Assembly (NCBI RefSeq): GCF_014805625.2
Contig: NW_023998422.1
Coordinates: 1,132,819-1,196,818 of the forward strand
Source of the DNA: Glossina fuscipes
Taxonomy: Eukaryota; Arthropoda; Insecta; Diptera; Glossinidae
Direction: 5' to 3'
Length of the DNA stretch: 64,000 nucleotides
The translations under genes were made by a program, and so were the position numbers. Within the stretch, counting starts at the first letter, position 1. The number at the start of each line of letters is the position of its first letter. Of this stretch, positions 4,280 through 39,100 are shown piece after piece. The notes beneath the pieces are model-generated. The model searched no databases and was not told the DNA's origin. It saw only the letters and a program-made list of their open reading frames with translations.

Positions 4280-7213
4280 CCCCAAGTAGAGGAGATGTAG
4301 AGGAGAAACACTACATGAAAGGAGACCAACTAGAGCAGCAGTGTGATAATAAATTGAATTTAAGTATTTTTGCGGTTTGTACCTTTTTTCGCCTAATGGT
4401 TTTTAAGAATGATGAACGATAATATATTCATAAATTTGATCTTAGATGAGACTGCGAACTTCTATTCTGCTATGAGTATTGTATGTACTTAAATTTGTAG
4501 AATTGAGTAAATAATAATATATAGAATCGTCCAAAAGAAGAAATGTCTTCTTCTTCTTCTCATTTTTTTTTTATTTTTTTTATTTGTTACAAACTCTGAA
4601 TTTAGTGAAGGAATATTATATCGATAAACTTTCTTTCTCGGAATTTCTTAAAAAAGGCCAGTTCTCTGAGCGCTTGACTCGCTGCTGAAGCATTGTAATT
4701 GTTTTAACTCTCACGATTTCGGCATCTAATTGAAGCTTTCTTTTCGGGAAATGGCACGTGGTGCTATTGTTTTACGTGCTTTGTAGCGGGTAGCGCGACT
4801 TTACTGGAACAACTAGGAACCTTTTCGGAAAAGTCCGAAAGTCCACTTACAATAGCCAAAAAACCGCCACAAGTTGCCACTCATTGTGCTCGACTCTTTA
4901 CCTTGGGTTTTCGAAGACTCAGATGTGACAATTTTATTTGCTTACATACTCAGGCAGGTCAAAATGTGCATAATTTACTCAGAATAATTTTGTTGAAAAA
5001 ATCATGCTAATGAATGTTCAACACACAATTCCCGAATTGCCGGCATTGTTCATGATCTGCTACTGATACCTATATTGTCGGCTACTTTTAAGCACGTAGC
5101 ACTACAAAGTGAGTTTGCGATAACCACACTATTTGCGACGGTCCCTGAGCGGGAAAATCTCGGTGTTCGTAGCAAAAGTGCCGATACTTTCAGCTACCAG
5201 CTGAAGTGAAGGAATCGTCCGAGAAGCTCAAATTTACTGATTAAATTCCAAATAGCCATGGCTGAGAATGCTGGATAATGACTGAAAGCAATAGGGGCTT
5301 TAGGAATCGTCTCGCCTCTATTTTCAATATTTTTCTAACGAATTTTCATCATTTCAAGGGGTAAACATATTCAAATTGAAGTCGTCTAATCCATGACCAA
5401 AACCGGCAGTCTCCATTGCCTATAACTGCACTTCGATTCACATCACTGTGTGTACATTTTTGACGGATTGGTTTCTTAGCGCGGTTTGCCAAACAAATGT
5501 CTATTTTTGTGGAAATCAAAGGAAAAAAGAAATGAAAGAACTTAGATCAGATCAATATTAAACTTACTTTACCAGATATAGGTAAAACCACAGCTCTTAA
5601 GTCTCTTAGAATTAGAAGACCATCCAGCATTTATAATTCTATATACATGTAATCTTGTACAACACAAATAACATTAAAGCGAAATATTTTAGCAAATATA
5701 GACAGGTAGAGAGAGAAAGATGTTCTTACTAATAAAGACAAATAGTAAGAATAGATAGATAGGAGAAAAATCTAAAATACAAATATTCACAATTCGATTC
5801 ACATATGAAATTTTCGTAGCTTTTATCTACCAAAAGTCATCATGATTCGAAAATGATGTGAAATTTAAATTTATGTCAGGAACTTGCGTATAAGTAAAAG
5901 GCGGAAATTTAAATCAAACCTTCCGTGAAATGTATGAACATAAGAAGGAGCGAAGACGAAGAGACCGGTGGCATACATTATTTAATTCAAATCTATTACT
6001 CTTCGCAAATTATTCGCATTTTTGTAGCTACGCCGAAATATCGGAGATCTCACAATCATAAAGTATATGTATTTTGAAGCGAACAGAAGATGGACGCGTC
6101 CATCTGACCATATTGTGCTAAAACTACTCGGGAACCTCTGTATATATATGTATAAATGTCCACCTATATACATATTCACCTATGCATACATATACATATA
6201 CACACACATATATATGCACATATATACCTCTATATATGTATACCTATATATATGTACAAATATATCCGTAAATATGTATACCTATAAATATATCTGTAAA
6301 TATGTTTATATATATATATATGTATATAGGTATATATATACATATTTCAATTCTATATATCCCGATCCAAATCAGCAAGTAATTGTTAAAAACCCTGGAA
6401 AATTTTATTACCTAATTTATCCTTTTAGGTTAAAGGAACTATGGATCAGAAGTTTAGATAATAAAGATTCTAACAAAAAGTTGTTAAAAGGCAATACGTA
6501 TGCCCTTAGGCTTCCAAATTATTCATACTTTCTATTAACTCGTAAAACTCAGTTTTTTTTTCCAAGGAATTTATTCGAAAGAGGATCGCAGATCTTCTTC
6601 TTGCTAGCTTTTCATACAAATTTCTTGTCTACTTAGAAAATTCTCACCTTCGCACCAGTATAGCTATAAAATAAAAAGTGGGCGATGAGCATAAGACTTC
6701 CTTTGTTTGTCGGACAGTCGCAGTAGCAAGTGATTTAGGATTTACAGTGAATCTAAAACTAGGCCATGTAAACCTGAGGACTTTCAGCATTTCAGCAGCA
6801 GCAAATATTTTAAAATTTGAAATGCGTAAAATACAAACACACATCCTACACTTTTCTTAAATTGATGCCTTTCTATGTAGGTTTTGGGCAATGGCTGAGT
6901 GGCACTTTCATGATTTCGTCTTGACATACAAGTATGCTTCGTAGTCAAAGAATAAGAATATATTCTAAATGCATAAAATAATAACAATAAGAATGTTCGA
7001 GTTGCAATATAATTCATTCATTTACTTTCCCACAATTCAGAACAATGTAGAATTAAAATGCGTTCAACGAAAGATAACACGACAAAGGTGTGCTTTGTCA
7101 AAAAGTGAATGAAAAAAATGTTAATAAAAAGTTAAGTGAAGTAATAAATAAATCGTGAATTAGGAAGAAACTATCTATGTTATATAATAGCGGGAATAAA
7201 GTGTTTTTTCCAA

Positions 7214-7835
7214 ATGATGAAACGTCGCTGGTCGAATAATGGCGGTTTTGCCGCTCTACGTATGCTTGAAGAATCATCCTCGGAGGTTACTTCCTCCTCT
7301 AATGGCTTAGTACTTTCTTCGGGTTTAAATATGTCGCCATCGTCTTTGGATTCACCAGTGTACGGTGAACAAGATATGTGGTTATGCAACGATGCCGCAA
7401 CAGCATATAATTCAAATCAACATGGCGTTATAACGTCATTGCATGGCTGTACCTCCACTTTGCCCGCCCAAACTACCATTATACCGTTACCTTCGCTACA
7501 AAATTCTAACACGAACAGTAATCCAAATTACGGTAGCAATAGTAACGGCAACAATGGTGGTGGCGGTGGCGGTGGCAGCGGCACCGGCAATGGCAATGGC
7601 AATGGTAGTGGAGTATCCGGCATAACCTCTCTTAATGGCTTTAGTTTAAGTCAAGCTACGCACAGTATAACGAGTCAACAAATCATTGCTCATCAAATGG
7701 CTCAGCAACCAAATGGTATTCCTTTACAAACAAGTAATGGAAGCTTGCACGGTTTGCAACATCATCAACTTAATAACAATGGAAATATGATGCATCATAC
7801 TCCGCGCAGCGAATCAGCAAATTCCATATCTTCAG
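7214..7835 (+). CDS. EcR: EcR coding exon 1 (B1-specific A/B domain)
   Basis: Encodes residues 1-207 plus one base of codon 208. It starts with the conserved B1 block [11 protein letters not shown], continues with [16 protein letters not shown] and NMSPSSLDS, and has a Gly/Asn-rich low-complexity stretch near residues 95-135. It ends with [14 protein letters not shown], the junction shared with other fly EcR-B1 proteins. Donor G|GTGAG is at 7836. The A/B domain carries the ligand-independent activation function AF-1 in this family. An EcR-A form would use a different first exon, not seen here. Confidence 0.96.
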
Positions 7836-10800
7836 GTGAGTTACTTGCACTAGAATCTCGCCGACAATAGAAAAGGCAATGCTATGTCCGGCATAACGCT
7901 ATAAAAGTGTTTCATTTAACGAATCCTAATATTCTCTGTACTGCATAAGAGCAGAATCATTAGAACATTTAATAAATGCCCGCTAGTTTCCAAGATTACT
8001 GTAAGCTAGTGAACAAAATTATTTGAATCTAATGTCTTTAACCTTCCGCCACTTTAGTAAAGTACGACTTTACCTGTTCAAATCGAATCCTGTTGAGTTC
8101 GTTTCGTGGACGAACCGATAAAGCTGTTCACACATGACAAAATCTCCATTCGGGTGGTTAGATGGACAGTATACTGTACTGCGGCTTACTTCAATCAAGT
8201 AAAGCTGCAAACAACCACAGGTGCGACTGAAGCGTAATATGTCAAAAGTCATGATATAGTGATTTTTCACCATACGGTAAAACAAACTCCGGGAACGTTA
8301 ACAGCATTGAACTGGAACGTGTTACAATCCCATCCCTTGTGTATCCCATCGGCCACTACCTCTTGCGCGCCCTTATTTATTCAAGAAGGCCTTTCATTTT
8401 TATGGCGATAATCTTTAAGAACTGGTTGTGCTCTCTGCCCGCAATTCATATTCTGCCTAAGAGACAGTAGAAGTAATGCTTATCGTTAGACAATAATCTG
8501 AATAAAATGTCTTGTGTCAACTTTTTTTATAATATACGTTCAACGTTACCAGTACAGAATTTGTGGCAAGGGTTTAACGTGGGTTCCTGCCTGAAAGGCT
8601 TAACCCCACGGTGGCCCAAACCACTTTTAAGCGTACTACGCCCCCTGGCGAGTTAGACAACCCCCACAGAGTAGGGGCCTAAACAGCACCAGAGGCCAGA
8701 ACAGTTTATTGTGTATGGAACAATAAACCCCACTCTGGTGAATGGCAAGACCTAGCTGCACTCAATTGTTCCATTTTAGCTAGGAACTCGCCAACCACAA
8801 CCACCACGAGTACTCCCCGAAGGGCCGCACCCAAGCAGTCAGGACTCACAAATTGATCAACTGACTGCTTCCGCCATAAGGCTTCCACTGTACTTGTTGA
8901 TCAATTACCACCATTACCCGCAGGCATCCGTGACATGTGTTCAAAAGTAAAAATAGGTAAAAGGGGAAAACTTATTCTTCATATCCCTTTTCCATTTTTG
9001 CATGTATTAATTAATTTACCAGACATTTTCTATCAATCGGCCAAAGGGAAGGCCGTCCGTCAATTCCTTTTTGCATTAATAGTATAATTAATTTATTTAT
9101 TTGTTACGACTTAAGGACAAAGTCCATCATATACCCGCAGGCATACGTGGCTTAGTGAGGCGAGCTTCCTGACCCCCGTGGCTCCCAGTTTATTTTGCAA
9201 AGCCTTATGGCATACTTTGGGCGGTTGTTAAAAACAACCGTACTTGCTTCGGATCCTCCATACTTTCCTGGTTGCTAGCACCAAGTGAACTACTTTTCTT
9301 CAAGATATATAGGTCTCGGGTCTTGCACTGAACATGGTAGACTAGTCTAATGCACTCTACCATGCACTCGCTAGATTACTACCTTCATTGTACTTAAATA
9401 CCATTCAATATATTTCCTCGGTAGTAACTAGCTTATTGAGTAAGAGCTCTTCTTCCAGCCAACCCCTCCACCATCTATCAGAAACTCGTCGCCGAGTTAG
9501 CAGCCCAAAACCTTAAACTCTTCTTAGCCGGCCGAAGCCGTTGCCCGGGGATCACCGCTGGGAGGTGAGAGTTTCGGCACATCTATGCTTCTCATCAAAG
9601 CATAGTTCATCTCCCCCGTTACCAGTACAATCAACGGAAACATAATGCGTAATTGTTCTTGCGAAAAGAAAGTCATAAGAATGACATAAAACAATTATGG
9701 AATGGTCCTTAAGCGCCAATTGTGTTTTCTTGAACCCTTCAGGGATTAAGCATGTTTACACGCATTGAACGCAATTTGATAAATTCCGTTAATGGGAACC
9801 GAATATGCGGAAATACTCATTTCAATCAGTCAGAATAGCTTTTTGTCCTAAACTCCTAACGTTGCCACATATACCGTAGTTCTTTGAATGACTAGCTTTA
9901 CCACCAGCCATATACTATTTATTTTCGAATTTTCCAGGAAAATATTTCTGTAACGATTTCTTCGCTCTGGTAACTACCTGTGCGGGATTTTAGATTGATG
10001 ATCTCCGCTAACTTGTATTAAGAGAATAATAAGAAGTAATTTATACTCGTCGTTGACCGTATGTGTTTCAATATACATCATCGACTGGTGTAAGATGCTT
10101 CATCGCAACGTACACCACAGATTCTTTCACTTGATATTTATATATACGCATATCGTGTATATATTACGAGAACACCAAGTGTTTTATTACTTGGCAACTT
10201 TCGTAGGCAATTGCACCAATTAAAACCATCATCTTTACATACCCTGTCCTGCTTACGTGTGGATTCGGACGTGTTGTGGCGGAGACATGCATCAGTTAAT
10301 TTGACATTTTCAACTTAATAATGTTAACTAATTTCGTTACTTGCGTGAAAAATACGATTAAAAAGAAAAGCTTTTAAATGCCTTTAGGTAATAGCTTTAC
10401 GGGAAAGATCGACTCTTTTCCACTCATTATATATATCATAGCCAAGAATACTCAATTCATATTTCCCATGTCATTGCTTCAATATTTAACGAATTATTGA
10501 AGACAACAAAAACAAAATAGTGATAACAAGTAAGAATATTATAGTCGGTAAAAGCCGTTCATTAAATACACTACACCACATTGTCCAACACAATTCTTCC
10601 TTCTATTATAGAGCACAAAACTTATATCTTGTTTCTACAAAAAGCGGACCCAAACCGCAACTTAATGTAGTGTTCTTATGTAAGGCAAGATCAAAAAATA
10701 GGCGTAGACGGTCAATATTTTCGAGGGTTTATTTTTGTATGAAATTACTTACTATTATGGGACAATTTTGATTACCACATATTAAAACTAAAATAATTTG

Positions 10801-11511
10801 TGCTCTACAAAGAATCAATTTTCGTCAAAATCCTTATTAGGGTAGTTTACAAAATATGGGCCGAGATGGTCCAAACTTGCTACAGTTAATTTTTTTATGC
10901 TACATTACTATTGTGATATAATTTTCATTAAGGCACATTGCAAATTATACCTTTTTTTCGTAAGAATTTCAGTTTTCGTTGTATGAGGGGGGGTTCAAAA
11001 ATTATCCCAGCCTGTCCAAAGCTTTTAGAATGCCGAAGTACTGCTATTTAACCACTTTTGTGGAGAAATTTTGAAAATAACAATTTTTTCGCATATAACG
11101 AGAGTAGGGCACTATATGTGGACTGGTCGAAAAAATGGACTGATCCGCACCATTTTCAATAGCATTCGTTCTTACGTCAAAACATGTCATTGCATCAAAT
11201 TGCATCAAAATATCCTAAAAATTGTGACCTATAGCTTGAACACAACTTTTATGGACAGGCAGATAGACAGACTTAGATCAATTCAGTTTATGTTCCTGAA
11301 TCGATCGGTATAATAAAAAGTGTCTGTATTTTAAGCCCTTCTGCGTACGTCCCCACTGTACCAGAACTACCCTGTACCACAAGTGGTGTAGTTCGACCTT
11401 GCTACTTTTCGAATATCACTGGACAGTGAGGTCATAAATACTAGAACAAGTTCTTAGTATGATTATGTGGACGGAGAAAGCAAGAACGCAAAAATAAATC
11501 GATTACGCAAT

Positions 11512-16100: not shown

Positions 16101-19100
16101 TCTAAGCGGACGATACCATTAAAACGCTATTATAATATTTTAACTATGGAAATTATCGTCATTATTATGTTTATTATTATCATTAATGTGGTTTGCATTA
16201 TGACTACAAAAACAAACAAAAATTGCACGATCAGTAACTTTTGCCAACAGGTTTTCATCTTTTATAAATTCACTTAAATTAATTAGTAAATCATTCTAAT
16301 AAACTTTGAATGAGAGAAGAAGCATTTAAAGATAATCACTAAACTAGTCTCAAACAACTGGTTGCAAAACCAGTAAATGAACAGAATAAATATATATATA
16401 TATATATAGGTAGATGGATGTACATGAACAGCTTTCGAGATTCAGCTCAAGTTGTATGCAGTAGCACTCTCACTTGCTTCACTTGCACATTACCACAACT
16501 ATGGCCACTTCAGGCAAACTATGGCTACGACGTTAACTACACAAATAACTATCCATCCATCTGTCTGCAGATAGTATACAGAACTTTAAAGTGATGTTGT
16601 TCTATTCACTTTTTCTTCAGTTTCGCGCTTTAAGTGAATGTTGTTTGTTTTCTGTTTTTCTTTTCTTTTTTTTTTTTTTTTTTTTTTGCTTTCATGTTTT
16701 TTATAAAACGCTACATTAACCAGTTTTCTGGTATGATATTACTGACTCCTTTTACTTAGCTTTACCAACGTAATGGAGAAAGTTAATATGTAATTTTTTC
16801 TATTATTATTATCTGCTGCAAATTGACACTGATTTTCTCTTTTCTTTTATGCTCATTACTACATAACAACCGTGGATTACTGATTTTATCATTCCGTTTG
16901 TGAAAAGTCAAAAAAATAATAATAATTAAACATTTTTTATAAGTGTAACTAAAGTGAGACTCCAAGTACCTTCTTTCCGTCCACCTACTTATTTACGCGA
17001 TAGTTTGGAAATAGTCCGNNNNNNNNNNCTAATAATATTTATTTAATTATGTCTTTCCGTCCACCTACTTATTTATGCGATAGTTGGGAAATAATCCCTC
17101 AAATCCAGAACAGTCTTCACTAATTTTCATATATGAAAGTACACTAAGCGTCATCAGAGAAAAAGCCTTATTTAGTGTTAAATATAAGTATAAGAGTGTG
17201 AAATGAATATATGATTCTTAGTCCAGTTTCGTTGTATGGCGCAAGTATGTTCATACGCACTTCGTCATAAGGTCGCATTTTATTTCTGTTTTGCTTTTTC
17301 TGTCAAGAAATTGACTTTAAAGCTGTTGATTAGAAATTAATGAATAAAAGTTGATTCGATTTTTGTGGTTGCTTTTAAGAAAACCTGTATACGAAGAGGA
17401 GAGCACTTGATGAATGTACCGTTTAATTTTAGATACAATCAATGCTATAAATATTCTTTCGTTCAAGCTAACGAAGAAAACCTTTGAAACATTTTTGCTT
17501 ATCATTGCGTTAAATTTCTTTTTAACTCAAATTCAAATCTTTATTGAATGCATTTTAATAGCAAGAAGAAGAAAAACAACAACAATATCATGATCATCAT
17601 CATCAAATTTTTGTGGCCATAATAAAAGAACTATGCATGCATTACCCATGAACTTGGTTTGAGTTTTGAGTTTCTTACATGCAGCATATGCACCATCGTA
17701 TATAGCCGCTCTCTGATGAGAGTACCCCTTTCTTTCCATAGTGTTTTATTTTAAAAGAATAGGTAAACGAAAGAAGGAAGGCAGTGCTACAAATTACAAA
17801 CACATGGAAAAAGTTCATGAACTTTTTGCCGATGCTGAAGGTTATCAAGTTTTCAAGAATTATGTAAAATTCGTTGAAAACAATCATATGTGAAAGTAAG
17901 TGCGACTACGAAAAAAAAAAAGTAGACAGCAATGCAATGCGTAAGCATGTAAGCAAACGAATTACGAATTCTCCAATACAATGAATGAAACGTCATGACA
18001 GAGAAATAGGTTTCGGGAAATTCCCTTAGATCTGCCGGCTTTAATAACAACGGCTTGATGGCACTTATCAATCTTACATAGCGCATAGAGGATTTCTTAA
18101 TGTATGTAGACAGCTTATAATATTTAATTTCTCTTCGATTCGATTATTAATGACTTTTCGTGGAAAATAAACAACATTTTATTGATAAAAAGCAAATTAG
18201 GAAAATTGCTGTTAATTGCGTTAATTTGTTGTTTGTTCGATGGATGAAATGAAGAAAGTTCATCTAGTGATTTAAGAAATGAGAGCCTAATCTTCGTAAA
18301 AGTATAATTGCAGTAAGTCTTTTGCAAAGCCTTTATGCCGTTGACCTTAAAAGAGAGCTCGTAGATCACTTAATATTATTTTTAGTTCACTCCTTTTTTT
18401 GTTTTCACTATCGGGCCGATAACTTTTCACCTCAGTTTTTTAACCCGAATTTTGCTATTGAGAATTCCCGCATTAGACTGACGGCACGACGGTCAGAAAA
18501 AATTCAACCGATCACTTAGCATATAAATCCATTTTATTGTCCTTGAATATGCCTTATCATCTGGTTCTGCCCAAAAGGATTTATCCAATTTTTATCCGGC
18601 AAAGACAATCAAAATAAGAATACTTTATCACAAAGGTCTCACAGTCCATGATTTGAGGAATTTCCATGAAAACAATTTGATTCTTTAAGAAGTCAAATTC
18701 CAAAAAACACACACATTCATTACAGTTCAGCAAGCCACATGCACAAGATTGACAACAATTAGCAGAACATTATACGGAAAGAGTGATACAAGACGAATAT
18801 TTCCGAAAGGCAAAGTCGATCGAGTCAAGAGAGATGAATCGTAATAAGAATCGGTGTATATATAACTTCTTGTAAATAATTTGTAGATGGATCTCCTAAG
18901 AATTGTAAATAAATATATTTACTCTCACACAATTCACAATTCATTCATTCACAATTCACTAGCGCGAACGTAATCTCAGAAAGAGTGCAATAAGCAATGT
19001 AAAAGTCGTAAAAGAAAGTTTACCTTGCATACAATATGTAATAAAAAATTTGCTAATAATACTGGGATTTAATAATCGAATTGTCAGCACTTCAAGAGGA

Positions 19101-22100: not shown

Positions 22101-24131
22101 ATCAGTGTCTGATCCAAAAACGTGAATTATAATCGTTTTGTCTATTGCGAGTTCATCAAGGCCACTATTATTTCTTTATTTCCCATTATTTCTTCCTTAT
22201 TACGGCGAAAACATATGAATGGACGGACAGACAGACGCATACGATTAAGATCATTTTATAACTCATGATGCTTATATTTCCCACTATTTCTTCTTTATCA
22301 TAGCGAGAATAAATGGACGGATGGACAGACGTGCGTAATTAAAATCATTTCATAGCTAATGGCGCTCAATCACTTTATGACTAAGCCTTTGGCGTGTATG
22401 TAAAAGTCGCAAACGGAAAGACAAATTTAATATACGTACATCCAGCTTTCACTGGTGGAGGTACAAAATAAACTTCAAGTACACTTTTGAATTAATTAAC
22501 CGCAATAATAGCAACAAAAGTTCGTGAAAAAATGCAAAAATGTATTTGAATTTTTTTTTGGGTAGAAATGCGTCAACCTACCTACCAAGGCTACCTTGAA
22601 AGTTGTTTGTTTTGTTTTATTTTTTTTTTTTTTTTTTTGTTGAACTGAAGTGACACTGTTACTTGAATTGAAACAAAGCCTTAACAGGGCAAGAATATTC
22701 TTGTGAAATATTTTCAATATTTACGCAAATGTGTCATCAATTTTGTTTATACATGTTTTACAATTGCATAGTTTTTGTTGACATTACTTATTTGCACCTA
22801 AAAAAAAAGTGGGAATTATGTCCCCTATTTCGTGCCCGTAAAGATATGAAAGAAATTAAAATGCAAATATTATCATTGCTTAAAATCGAATTTAGTCACG
22901 TTTTTCAGACGAATTAAATGCGCGCGTTACCCCTGCATGGATAGTTAAAGAGAGAAAGTTCTTTTTAGGTTAAGATCACATAAATCAAAATTTTGTGTTT
23001 ATTTTCTTTATAAGAAGTTTTGAACTCGCATTAAAATTACTTTTTTTTCCTTTTTTTTTTTTTCAATTTCTTTTTATAAATTTTATTTTCCACTCTGTGC
23101 AGTACTTTTCCAATTGAACCAATTATATATATATATATATAACATTTGCTTTGAAAGCAACCGCAATGCTTGTCGTGTTAATATCTTCAGTTTGCAAAAT
23201 ATTTGATATGCACGGCTTTCACAGGAAAGATATCGATTTATCTCTTATGAGATAGTGTTGCTTACAGTACGAAAGGCGATAATGTTAGTAAGCCTTCGGT
23301 GTCCACTAATACGAGATCGTTAAGAAGTTAAATTTACATTAAAACCCATTACATTAGCCTAAGATTTTAAACGTAAGACCGGTACTTTCATGCCTAAACA
23401 TCCACACACACGGTCGGGAGGAAAAAAACGTAGGGCTGCAAACATTATGAGAAAACAAAGACATAAGCTTAACGATCCTCGCAGGCTTTTAAGTAGCGCC
23501 TAACAGGCTGCTAATGGAAAAAAATAATAAAAAATAAATTGCAATAGAAAAACTTGTCCTTTTCGTACAGGGTATATTAAGTTAGTGCGGTCGTATGTAA
23601 CACGTAGAAGGGCTTAAGGTAGACACACTTTTCATTATATCGATCGATTCAGAATCATAATCTGAATTGATCTAAGCCTATCTGCCTGTCTGTCCGTCTG
23701 ACGTCTGCCCATAAAAGTTGCACATTTGAAGTCAATGTCGATTTACAGCTTTTTACCTTTTACCAGCTTAGTTTTGGGACAGATCACGTGCATTATGCAT
23801 CTTAGTTCGAAGGATCAACGAAAAGTATATATACCAAGTTTTTCTTCTCTCTCCGAATTTTTGTAACCTTGACTGCTTCAAAAACGTAGTATAGACGATT
23901 CGAAATGTCCGATGCTTATGGCTGGATGTGACAAAGGCGAAAGATGAGTTGAAGCTTGTTCACATTCGTTTTATATTGAAGTTTCCGAATGCTTGTTATA
24001 CATAAGCATATCAGGGACCTGAATAGCCGTTTCGATTTGGCCGCGGTTGTTAAACTACAATAATAAAAAAGGAGCTTCAAGATAACTGAGAAAACCCCCA
24101 GTCGTATTATCTTTCTTACTGTCACACCCAG

Positions 24132-36100: not shown

Positions 36101-39100
36101 CAAATTGCATTAATTCTACAAGATCAATGAAATATATTTTTATAGCGAGGTTGAAAGCCCCAGCACGGAGAACATTGCAGCCTAAGACTTTAGCTTTGCT
36201 TAATATCCATAGAAAGGGAAGAGTTAGAGTCGTTCACAGAAGCAAACGGGTTACGATCCGAAATATACGACCACATAAACTTACAAGCGCTCCGAGTGAA
36301 GTTGAATTTATTATACACTTTGTTAATAAGCTTAGCGTATGGAACTCTGTCAAAAGCTTTAATTAGATCGAGAGTGACAAGAACACAGCCCCCGCAAGCA
36401 TTGATATTATCCATAATGTATTCCATGACGGAGATTAAAAAATTCGAGAGGCAATGTTAATGCGGAAAGCCGAGCTGGGGATCATGCAGGGCATAACTGT
36501 TATTCAAGAATAAGTCAAATTGTTCTTTCATGATAAGCCGCGTAACTTTGAAGACACGGGATAGGATGTTAATCGGTCGAAGGTTATTATGAGCAAAAGA
36601 GGCGCTTTGTTTGGGAATGGCTATTTTCCACTCCTTCGGAAACTTGAAGGTCATTAGTATCGTATGGAAGACCTGTAGTAGATGGTAAGATATTTAGGGA
36701 AAAATCAAGTTAACAAGTTCTGCTTAGAGTTAGCTTTTCCGAAGAAGTTGGCTTAGGCTTGATTTCTTTCCTTCCTCCCTTCCTTGCATATTAACTATTA
36801 TCTCTCGTAATAATTTTATCTTGAAAAACTCGAATCAATTTGAAACTTATTAACGAGATAAGACACCATTGCTTACCTTAGGCTGAAAGAAAAGTTTCAG
36901 TATTTGCTCACGCTATTTTATAAGACCATTAGCGAAATAACACTGCTTTAACCTTAACCACATAGAGTGTTCTTTACTGTGCGTATCAGTAGTAGACATA
37001 TTTTTGATTGGCAGTGTATGTATATATGTATGTGTTACTCGTATATAAAAATGAATGCAGAGTTCAAGTGCATGCACAGGCTTGCTTACGTATACATATA
37101 TATGTATATATATATATATATATGCCTGCATGTAAATGTACACACATTTCGAGGTAAGCATGTGCAAAACCCATTGTCCCACTGAATTTCTGAATTGTAC
37201 ATGTAATGCATTCACATAATTTATTATTGTCGGCGTTTTAGTTAATAGGTGTGCAATCAGGTATAGTGAGGAAACTGGTCGTAACAATGACCTCGACAAT
37301 TTTCTTATTATTATAAGCATTTTACGTATATAAGGCAGATTTAAAAAAGTGATTATTGAATTTCCACAATCTCACCCCCAATCGTCTGCTCCTTCCTGTT
37401 CTTATGATATATTCTTTATATACTCTGTAGTGTAGTTGGAAAAAAAAAAAAATAAGGCAACAAAACTAGACGATCCTATGCTATTTTCTTTGATTAATTT
37501 CTATATTTTCTATTGCAGGACGCGATGACTTGTCCCCATCGAGCAGTCTTAATGGCTTTTCAACTAACGACACTAGTGATGGGAAAAAAATTAAAAAAGG
37601 TCCCGCTCCACGTTTACAAGAAGAGCTATGTTTGGTGTGCGGTGATCGGGCTTCGGGTTATCATTACAATGCTCTCACCTGTGAAGGCTGTAAGGGTTTC
37701 TTTCGACGAAGTGTTACCAAAAATGCCGTCTATTGTTGTAAATTTGGTCATGCTTGTGAAATGGATATGTATATGCGTCGTAAATGTCAAGAGTGTCGAC
37801 TAAAAAAGTGTTTAGCGGTAGGAATGCGACCGGAATGTGTTGTACCGGAAAATCAATGTGCAATGAAGCGACGTGAAAAGAAGGCACAAAAAGAGAAGGA
37901 CAAACTGCAGACCTCTACCTGTAACACTGACTTTATAAAAAAGGAAATTCTCGACCTGATGACATGCGAGCCACCGTCGCACCCTACAGCTCCGGTAAAT
38001 TTTTAACTGAACATCATTTCAAGATGCAATTAAAAATACATATATATGTTCTTTCAATACTTGCAGCTATTACCTGATGACATTTTAGCGAAATGTCAAG
38101 CACGCAATATACCTCCTCTAACATTCAATCAACTGGCGGTGATTTATAAACTAATTTGGTATCAGGATGGGTATGAGCAGCCGTCAGAGGAAGATCTCAA
38201 AAGAATAATGGTTGTAATTAAGGACAAATTTAAAAAAAATCATGAATACCGCTTTTAACAACAACTTCTTCTTCTGTTAAATTATAGAGCTCACCGGACG
38301 AAAATGAAAGTCAGCATGATGTTAGCTTTCGACATATTACGGAAATCACGATACTGACTGTACAGCTTATCGTTGAGTTTGCCAAGGGTTTGCCAGCGTT
38401 TACCAAAATACCGCAAGAAGATCAAATAACGCTTCTGAAAGTTAGTCTTTTTAAAATACAAAACAAAATTTACTTTAATCCTCACTATATATGTATATAC
38501 AAATTTCTTCTCTTATATTATATCGCAGGCCTGCTCATCCGAAGTAATGATGTTACGTATGGCGCGTCGTTATGATCATAACTCAGATTCAATATTTTTT
38601 GCCAATAATCGATCGTATACGCGTGACTCGTACAAAATGGCCGGCATGGCTGACAACATTGAGGACCTATTGCATTTTTGTCGGCAAATGTATTCCATGA
38701 AAGTCGACAACGTCGAATACGCACTACTCACTGCCATTGTGATCTTCTCCGATCGGCCGGGTCTCGAAAAAGCCGAACTAGTCGAAGCGATACAAAGCTA
38801 TTACATTGATACACTCCGCATTTACATACTTAACCGCCATTGTGGCGACCCCATGAGTCTAGTGTTCTTCGCCAAGCTGCTTTCCATACTAACTGAACTG
38901 CGTACATTGGGCAATCAAAATGCAGAAATGTGCTTCTCGCTAAAACTGAAAAATCGCAAACTTCCAAAATTCTTGGAAGAAATTTGGGATGTGCACGCAA
39001 TACCGCCATCCGTGCAATCGCATATACAAGCAACCCAAGCGGAGAAAGCAGCCCAAGAGTCAGCCACGACATCGAGCAATATGTCGAATGCGTTGACTGC

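Follow-up and report, generated by a model that had tools for sequence, protein, structure and literature searches.

An HDV-like ribozyme fold at the exact 5' end of a short, dispersed, non-autonomous retroelement of Glossina fuscipes

Hepatitis delta virus (HDV)-like ribozymes at the 5' ends of long interspersed nuclear elements (LINEs) are already known, as are short internally deleted elements (SIDEs) bound to ribosomal DNA (rDNA). According to excerpts of PMC3414825, the R2/R1 hybrid SIDEs of Drosophila carry a 5' HDV-like ribozyme and no open reading frame (ORF), occur as head-to-tail copies, are moved by the machinery of another LINE with duplications of ca. 14 bp, and are seated at the R1 site of 28S. 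We describe here a 1,060-nt element on the minus strand of a 64,000-nt stretch of the Glossina fuscipes genome (contig NW_023998422.1, positions 1,132,819 to 1,196,818; hereafter the window), which resembles these SIDEs in the first three respects and whose duplications are likewise mostly 13-14 nt. Unlike them, the element is dispersed, and an R1 3' end is only putative here. What is new is the dispersed state combined with an R1-like target; no report of an R1-like element that is dispersed and carries an HDV-like ribozyme was found in the open-access literature searched, subscription papers and repeat databases such as Repbase being outside the search. We consider it probable (ca. 0.8) that an HDV-like self-cleaving ribozyme caps this dispersed SIDE-like element and that the element is moved by a LINE reverse transcriptase (RT), most likely of the R1 clade. 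This reading is based on the observed fold, which is conserved among relatives, and on the ends of the element, the duplications, the 5' truncations, and the site preference.

The fold, the catalytic C and the variable 5' junctions are like those of R2 ribozymes, and the predicted cleavage point is the 5' end of the element, which is also the case for R2 of the fruit fly (excerpts of PMC3774820). R2 differs in being autonomous and located in 28S, and its P1 usually has 6-7 bp, whereas that of this element is shorter (same excerpts). TbRIME is likewise a short non-autonomous element with a 5' HDV-like ribozyme (excerpts of PMC3414825). It belongs to the L1Tc/ingi clade, and its trypanosomatid hosts are unrelated to the fly. 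Trypanosomatid elements of this clade reportedly carry the Pr77 ribozyme.

An earlier note on this stretch, made from the letters alone, had proposed a delta-ribozyme fold on the minus strand, and every part that it named was found in its place (Table 1). The helices follow the P1-P2-P3-P4 double-pseudoknot order of HDV-like ribozymes, and T9568-A9552 is a possible fifth P3 pair in competition with P2. The covariance model of RF02682 (HDV-F-prausnitzii, a bacterial family) aligned to 9583-9515 with 31.9 bits and an E value of 4.2e-4 in a search of 551 bases, below its gathering score of 44 bits, and it was the sole HDV family listed in the covariance-model scan. Because of this shortfall, an Rfam scan of the whole window at gathering score listed zero families. 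A structural descriptor, composed with the sequence already in view, matched a single locus on both strands of the 64 kb; after shuffling, it matched none of 200 windows and none of 3000 elements. The E value and the lack of descriptor matches in the shuffles point to more than chance, and the HDV-like identity is further backed by compensatory changes among relatives (see below). The minimum free energy (MFE) structure from ViennaRNA, which cannot represent P2, includes P1, the J1/2 hairpin, P3, and P4. Judged by its sequence, the minus strand from 9616 to 9515 is an HDV-like ribozyme fold. Its stable J1/2 hairpin is like P1.2 of the Anopheles Agam-2 ribozymes and may pinch P1 and P2 together; excerpts of PMC4908430 describe that such a hairpin speeds Agam-2 cleavage when P2 is long and the linkers short. 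P2 has 12 bp in Agam-2 but only 6-7 bp here, where the linkers measure 6 and 8 nt, and any help from the hairpin may therefore be limited.

The earlier note had overlooked the context of the ribozyme, which forms the first 102 nt of a dispersed 1.06-kb insert flanked by a target-site duplication. Among ORFs of at least 60 aa, the longest wholly within the element encode 76 aa (plus strand) and 64 aa (minus strand); a Pfam search of the 64-aa ORF gave no match. As regards a possible pol III SINE, a tRNA scan of the window found none, and the Rfam scan at gathering score likewise listed no family. When the genome containing the window (366 Mb) was searched for copies, queries from the 5' and 3' regions gave 444 and 909 first-look candidates, respectively, which are not a copy number, and 40 of each were scored. 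With the 5' query, 39 of the 40 scored matches lay at other genome sites and their similarity began at query positions 50-67; 19 began exactly at position 65, which corresponds to window position 9616. Copies elsewhere in the genome have the same ends as the window element.

After removal of repeats, 78 loci (L001-L048 and L079-L108) yielded 71 distinct insertion sites. The element begins at position 1 in 53 of these and at positions 2-4 in 6, while 12 are truncated at the 5' end. All 12 truncated sites stem from the 40 loci located by their 3' end, a sample that is less biased because the 5' query cannot recover truncated copies. The 3' end was unclear at two sites, and duplications were judged on the remaining 69: in 54, a perfect duplication of 7 nt or more starts directly at the element 3' end, and none of this kind was found in the other 15. 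The commonest lengths among the 54 sites were 13 nt (16 sites) and 14 nt (14 sites; range, 8-16), and the duplication abuts the element 5' end without a gap in 32 of them. Junctions with added or missing bases agree with excerpts of PMC3774820 on elements cut at the 5' end by a ribozyme. A ribozyme at the exact 5' end without an RT ORF, together with duplications, a fixed 3' end and 5' truncation, are the features of a SIDE, and the element is a short non-autonomous non-long-terminal-repeat retroelement, SIDE-like and dispersed in the fly genome.

To follow the fold in older members of the family, a diverged relative adjoining one copy (L005) was used as a query and gave 60 matches in 30 loci. 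Comparison with the element covered 29 older loci (L050-L078), which align to it in pieces of ca. 63-88% identity; 27 of them begin in its first 30 bases and 19 reach position 1040 or beyond. A covariance model lacking the P2 pairing gave 38 matches from 36 of 38 sources, and after two duplicates were dropped, 36 distinct ribozyme rows were analysed, of which 9 come from the young family or near it and most from older relatives. With P2 added, 92.1% of cells were paired; the shuffles gave 90.8%, none of 500 reaching the observed value, and versions of the structure slid along the alignment reached at most 49.1%. The covariation score was 0.135 against 0.111 in shuffles (0 of 500 as high), with slid versions not exceeding 0.070. 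Compensatory changes occur in P2, where pair 9571/9518 is C-G in 27 rows and U-A in 4, and pair 9570/9519 has 18 rows with C-G and 13 with U-A; identical counts for both were obtained with MAFFT on an unfitted alignment. The P4 hairpin was paired in 95.8% of cells, and its pair 9537/9532 is C-G in 28 rows and U-A in 3. The J1/2 hairpin was paired in 96.2% of cells over 35 rows, one of the 36 being gapped there. The candidate catalytic position 9527 is C in 33 rows and T in 3, each G of the P1.1 GG is kept in 35 rows, and the two C residues of L3 are kept in 32 and 34. In 24 of the 29 older loci, mean identity to the window element was 0.849 in the ribozyme, 0.831 in region 103-234, and 0.785 in region 235-400, the ribozyme exceeding the former region in 19 of 24 loci and the latter in all 24. 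Since the search query favoured the 5' part, this higher identity is weak evidence of constraint.

Several observations weigh against a functional ribozyme. The Rfam score of the window copy lies below the curated value, and no more than 5 of 20 older loci matched RF02682 at E of at most 1, all with sub-threshold scores (27.7-30.8 bits). P1, usually of 6-7 bp in such ribozymes, has only five pairs and is the least conserved helix (78.9% paired); in older relatives it mostly has four, the fifth pair being U-U in 20 of the 36 rows and A-U in young copies. The MFE structure lengthens P4 (9545-9543 with 9528-9526) and so occupies one P1.1 G and C9527, which it pairs with G9544, contrary to the ribozyme fold; its energy is also unremarkable (z, -0.72; 42 of 200 shuffles equally low). 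As for conservation, the shuffle controls for pairing and covariation ignore the relatedness of the rows, the number of pairs changed on both sides (5) was not above that in shuffles (4.1; 175 of 500 as high), and covariation was not in excess in an initial set of 7 rows (139 of 500). In the young copies recovered through their 3' end, the ribozyme differs by 2.0% as compared to 1.7-1.9% elsewhere in the element, which is expected if copies drift after insertion.

The short P1, the sub-threshold scores, the MFE structure with C9527 paired and the lack of extra constraint among young copies would also suit a mere look-alike, that is, a decayed or never-active resemblance to HDV in an element driven by an ordinary internal promoter. 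We regard this as unlikely: the P2 compensatory changes and the retention of the catalytic C among relatives argue against it, as does the exact coincidence of the predicted cut with the element start in most insertion sites. Moreover, the R2 ribozyme of the jewel wasp (Nv) has a P1 of 4 nt and is reported to cleave itself (excerpts of PMC3774820); given this exception, a P1 of 6-7 bp is a usual and not a strictly defining feature.

The insertion sites, when aligned at the 3' junction, have T(T/C)TTAC↓TGTCCCTAT as their commonest letters (the arrow marks the junction). They were compared, in sliding registers, with a piece of 28S rRNA. The best register over 54 sites was the R1 nick itself, with 9.15 of 20 letters matching per site as compared to 6.85 in the next best. 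For letters 4-14, only 85 of 50,000 permutations fitted the R1 site as well or better with 66 sites, and for an initial 39 sites the figure was 35 of 20,000; the nine letters preceding the nick fitted less sharply (557 of 20,000). This comparison was post hoc, having been conceived once the sites were known. A 28S 23-mer had 0 matches in the genome, and one of its letters may be wrong. A search with a 28S 33-mer allowing up to 3 mismatches found one decayed rDNA piece (L109), which confirms the R1 letters 3' of the nick (TGTCCCTATCTACTATCTAGC). This piece belongs to a decayed 28S rRNA fragment outside the rDNA (L109:836-1942; RF02543), in which the letters directly before CCAAATGCC, near the R2 site, are not 28S-like by eye.

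Given that the preferred site, TAC↓TGTCCCTAT, corresponds to the R1 target in 28S, the element is probably moved by a LINE of the R1 clade. A head-to-tail arrangement was also seen: in L016, one copy follows the 3' end of another after 14 nt, and the spacer resembles the duplication, comparable to the head-to-tail R1 tandem arrays in excerpts of PMC3414825. Two head-to-tail matches 17 nt apart were noted at C509:1763607-1764503. The partner LINE itself was not found among the 3' regions of 5 LINEs compared out of 4189 RT candidates (best E, 1.8), which tells against this reading; three of these 3' regions (L110, L113, and L114) have TAA repeats after the ORF.

Two refinements concern the origin of the element. 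It may be a true hybrid of an R2 5' ribozyme and an R1 3' end, like the Drosophila SIDEs, that departed from the rDNA. The R1-like site preference and the duplication length agree with this, and the core of the older relatives resembles the Drosophila R2(cat1) primer (excerpts of PMC3414825): by eye, L067 shares the most letters seen (14 of 15), followed by the common form of the older relatives with 13 and the window copy with 11. Against this origin, no R1 or R2 from this genome was recovered for comparison, and the 71 sites have differing flanks, none being an R1 site, where hybrid SIDEs are located. A search for the element 3' end joined to a near-exact R1 site also gave 0 matches in an assembly that nearly lacks the 28S R1 site. 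We hold a hybrid origin as a tentative possibility, somewhat short of even odds. Slightly less probable is descent, by internal deletion, from one ribozyme-bearing LINE family, such as R4, Dong, or Baggins. R4, Dong, baggins, and L1Tc are LINEs that cleave at their 5' ends (excerpts of PMC3774820), but the match of the site preference to the R1 nick speaks against such a derivation, and no LINE bearing this 5' end was seen among the top-scoring matches examined (38 of the 40 scored 5'-query matches and the 30 loci from the 60 older-relative matches). The loci collected contain only 10 ORFs of at least 170 aa, two of which are LINE-like (L048 and L078) and, judged by position and strand, flank the element instead of continuing it.

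Table 1 Features of the element, its ribozyme and the surrounding EcR locus in the window
Feature	Positions	Strand	Remarks
Whole element	8557..9616	-	1,060 nt; 5' end 9616; 3' end ...TTGCCACAAATTC at 8557; bounded by duplication
Target-site duplication, upstream copy	9617..9629		TGTACTGGTAACG (minus-strand reading); 13/13 identical
Target-site duplication, downstream copy	8544..8556		13/13 identical
HDV-like ribozyme	9515..9616	-	RF02682 match 9583-9515, descriptor, relatives; predicted cut 5' of G9616
P1 5' strand GGGGA	9616-9612	-	Partner TCCCC 9551-9547; five pairs
P1 3' strand TCCCC	9551-9547	-	Partner 9616-9612
P2 5' strand AAACTCT	9574-9568	-	Partner 9521-9515
P2 3' strand AGAGTTT	9521-9515	-	Partner 9574-9568
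P3 CACC / GGTG	9567-9564 / 9556-9553	-	P3-L3-P3' spans 9553..9567
L3 TCCCAGC	9563-9557	-	CC 9562-9561 for P1.1
GGGCAAC	9546-9540	-	GG 9546-9545 for P1.1
P4 hairpin CGGC / GCCG	9540-9537 / 9532-9529	-	TTCG loop
J4/2 GCTAAGA	9528-9522	-	Candidate catalytic C is C9527
Extra J1/2 hairpin	9605-9597 with 9591-9583	-	8 Watson-Crick pairs and 1 G-U
ORF with EcR B-type N-terminal exon	7148..7870	+	Stop-to-stop bounds
EcR DNA-binding-domain motifs	37623..37811	+	Motif match

The earlier note had also placed the ribozyme in an EcR intron. Its position, between an ORF with an EcR exon and the EcR DNA-binding motifs, agrees with this, but it lies on the opposite strand. Among named proteins, the EcR ORF best matches one from Zeugodacus cucurbitae (71%, with 46% of the query covered); four nameless proteins scored higher. 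Since the ribozyme is on the opposite strand, EcR pre-mRNA does not contain it, and the window copy, antisense to EcR, should not cut this pre-mRNA. The intronic location had left room for an EcR-exapted ribozyme, as has reportedly been proposed for the CPEB3 intronic ribozyme; we rejected this idea as extremely improbable, the strand being wrong and the copy being one among many closely similar insertions. The EcR intron also contains an inverted 94-nt pair (11253-11346 and 23602-23695; 84% complementary, 12 kb apart), which possibly represents two copies of another dispersed repeat, and a direct 46-nt repeat lies at 16972-17017 and 17052-17097 (93% identical, 80 nt apart).

Some individual copies deserve mention. 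At L005:496-1667, a young copy has inserted ca. 25 nt upstream of an older relative's 5' end, and two ribozymes now follow one another. Three copies (L003, L042, and L045) have identical target letters, TATACCTAAATTTAT, probably within another repeat, and a 5'-truncated copy at L048 stands between ORFs of 329 and 182 aa resembling LINE parts, as if inserted there. Within the window element, an 18-nt direct repeat (8915-8932 and 9132-9149; 17 of 18 identical) is possibly the trace of an internal duplication. A search of viral contigs for the exact 48-nt core gave 0 matches.

We infer that the RNA is cleaved, that transcription reads through into the element and which machinery is involved, and the movement of the element would be as described below. 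A copy would be transcribed inside a longer host transcript, and the ribozyme would cut immediately before G9616, so that the RNA released starts precisely where the element does. The RT of a LINE, most likely of the R1 clade, would recognise the element 3' end, and the LINE machinery would nick sites like TAC↓TGTCCCTAT. Target-primed reverse transcription would then copy the RNA, and the resulting duplication would mostly measure 12-15 nt. More speculatively, and with somewhat less than even confidence, we suggest that this is a SIDE that escaped the rDNA, in which an R2-type ribozyme and R1-clade machinery with a relaxed site preference would together allow promoterless, genome-wide spread on host transcripts; insertions in the sense orientation should then cut host pre-mRNAs. 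A dispersed, recently amplified, and possibly promoterless R1-targeting element would show how rDNA parasites leave the rDNA, and its many natural insertions would serve to study the co-transcriptional cleavage of host RNA in vivo.
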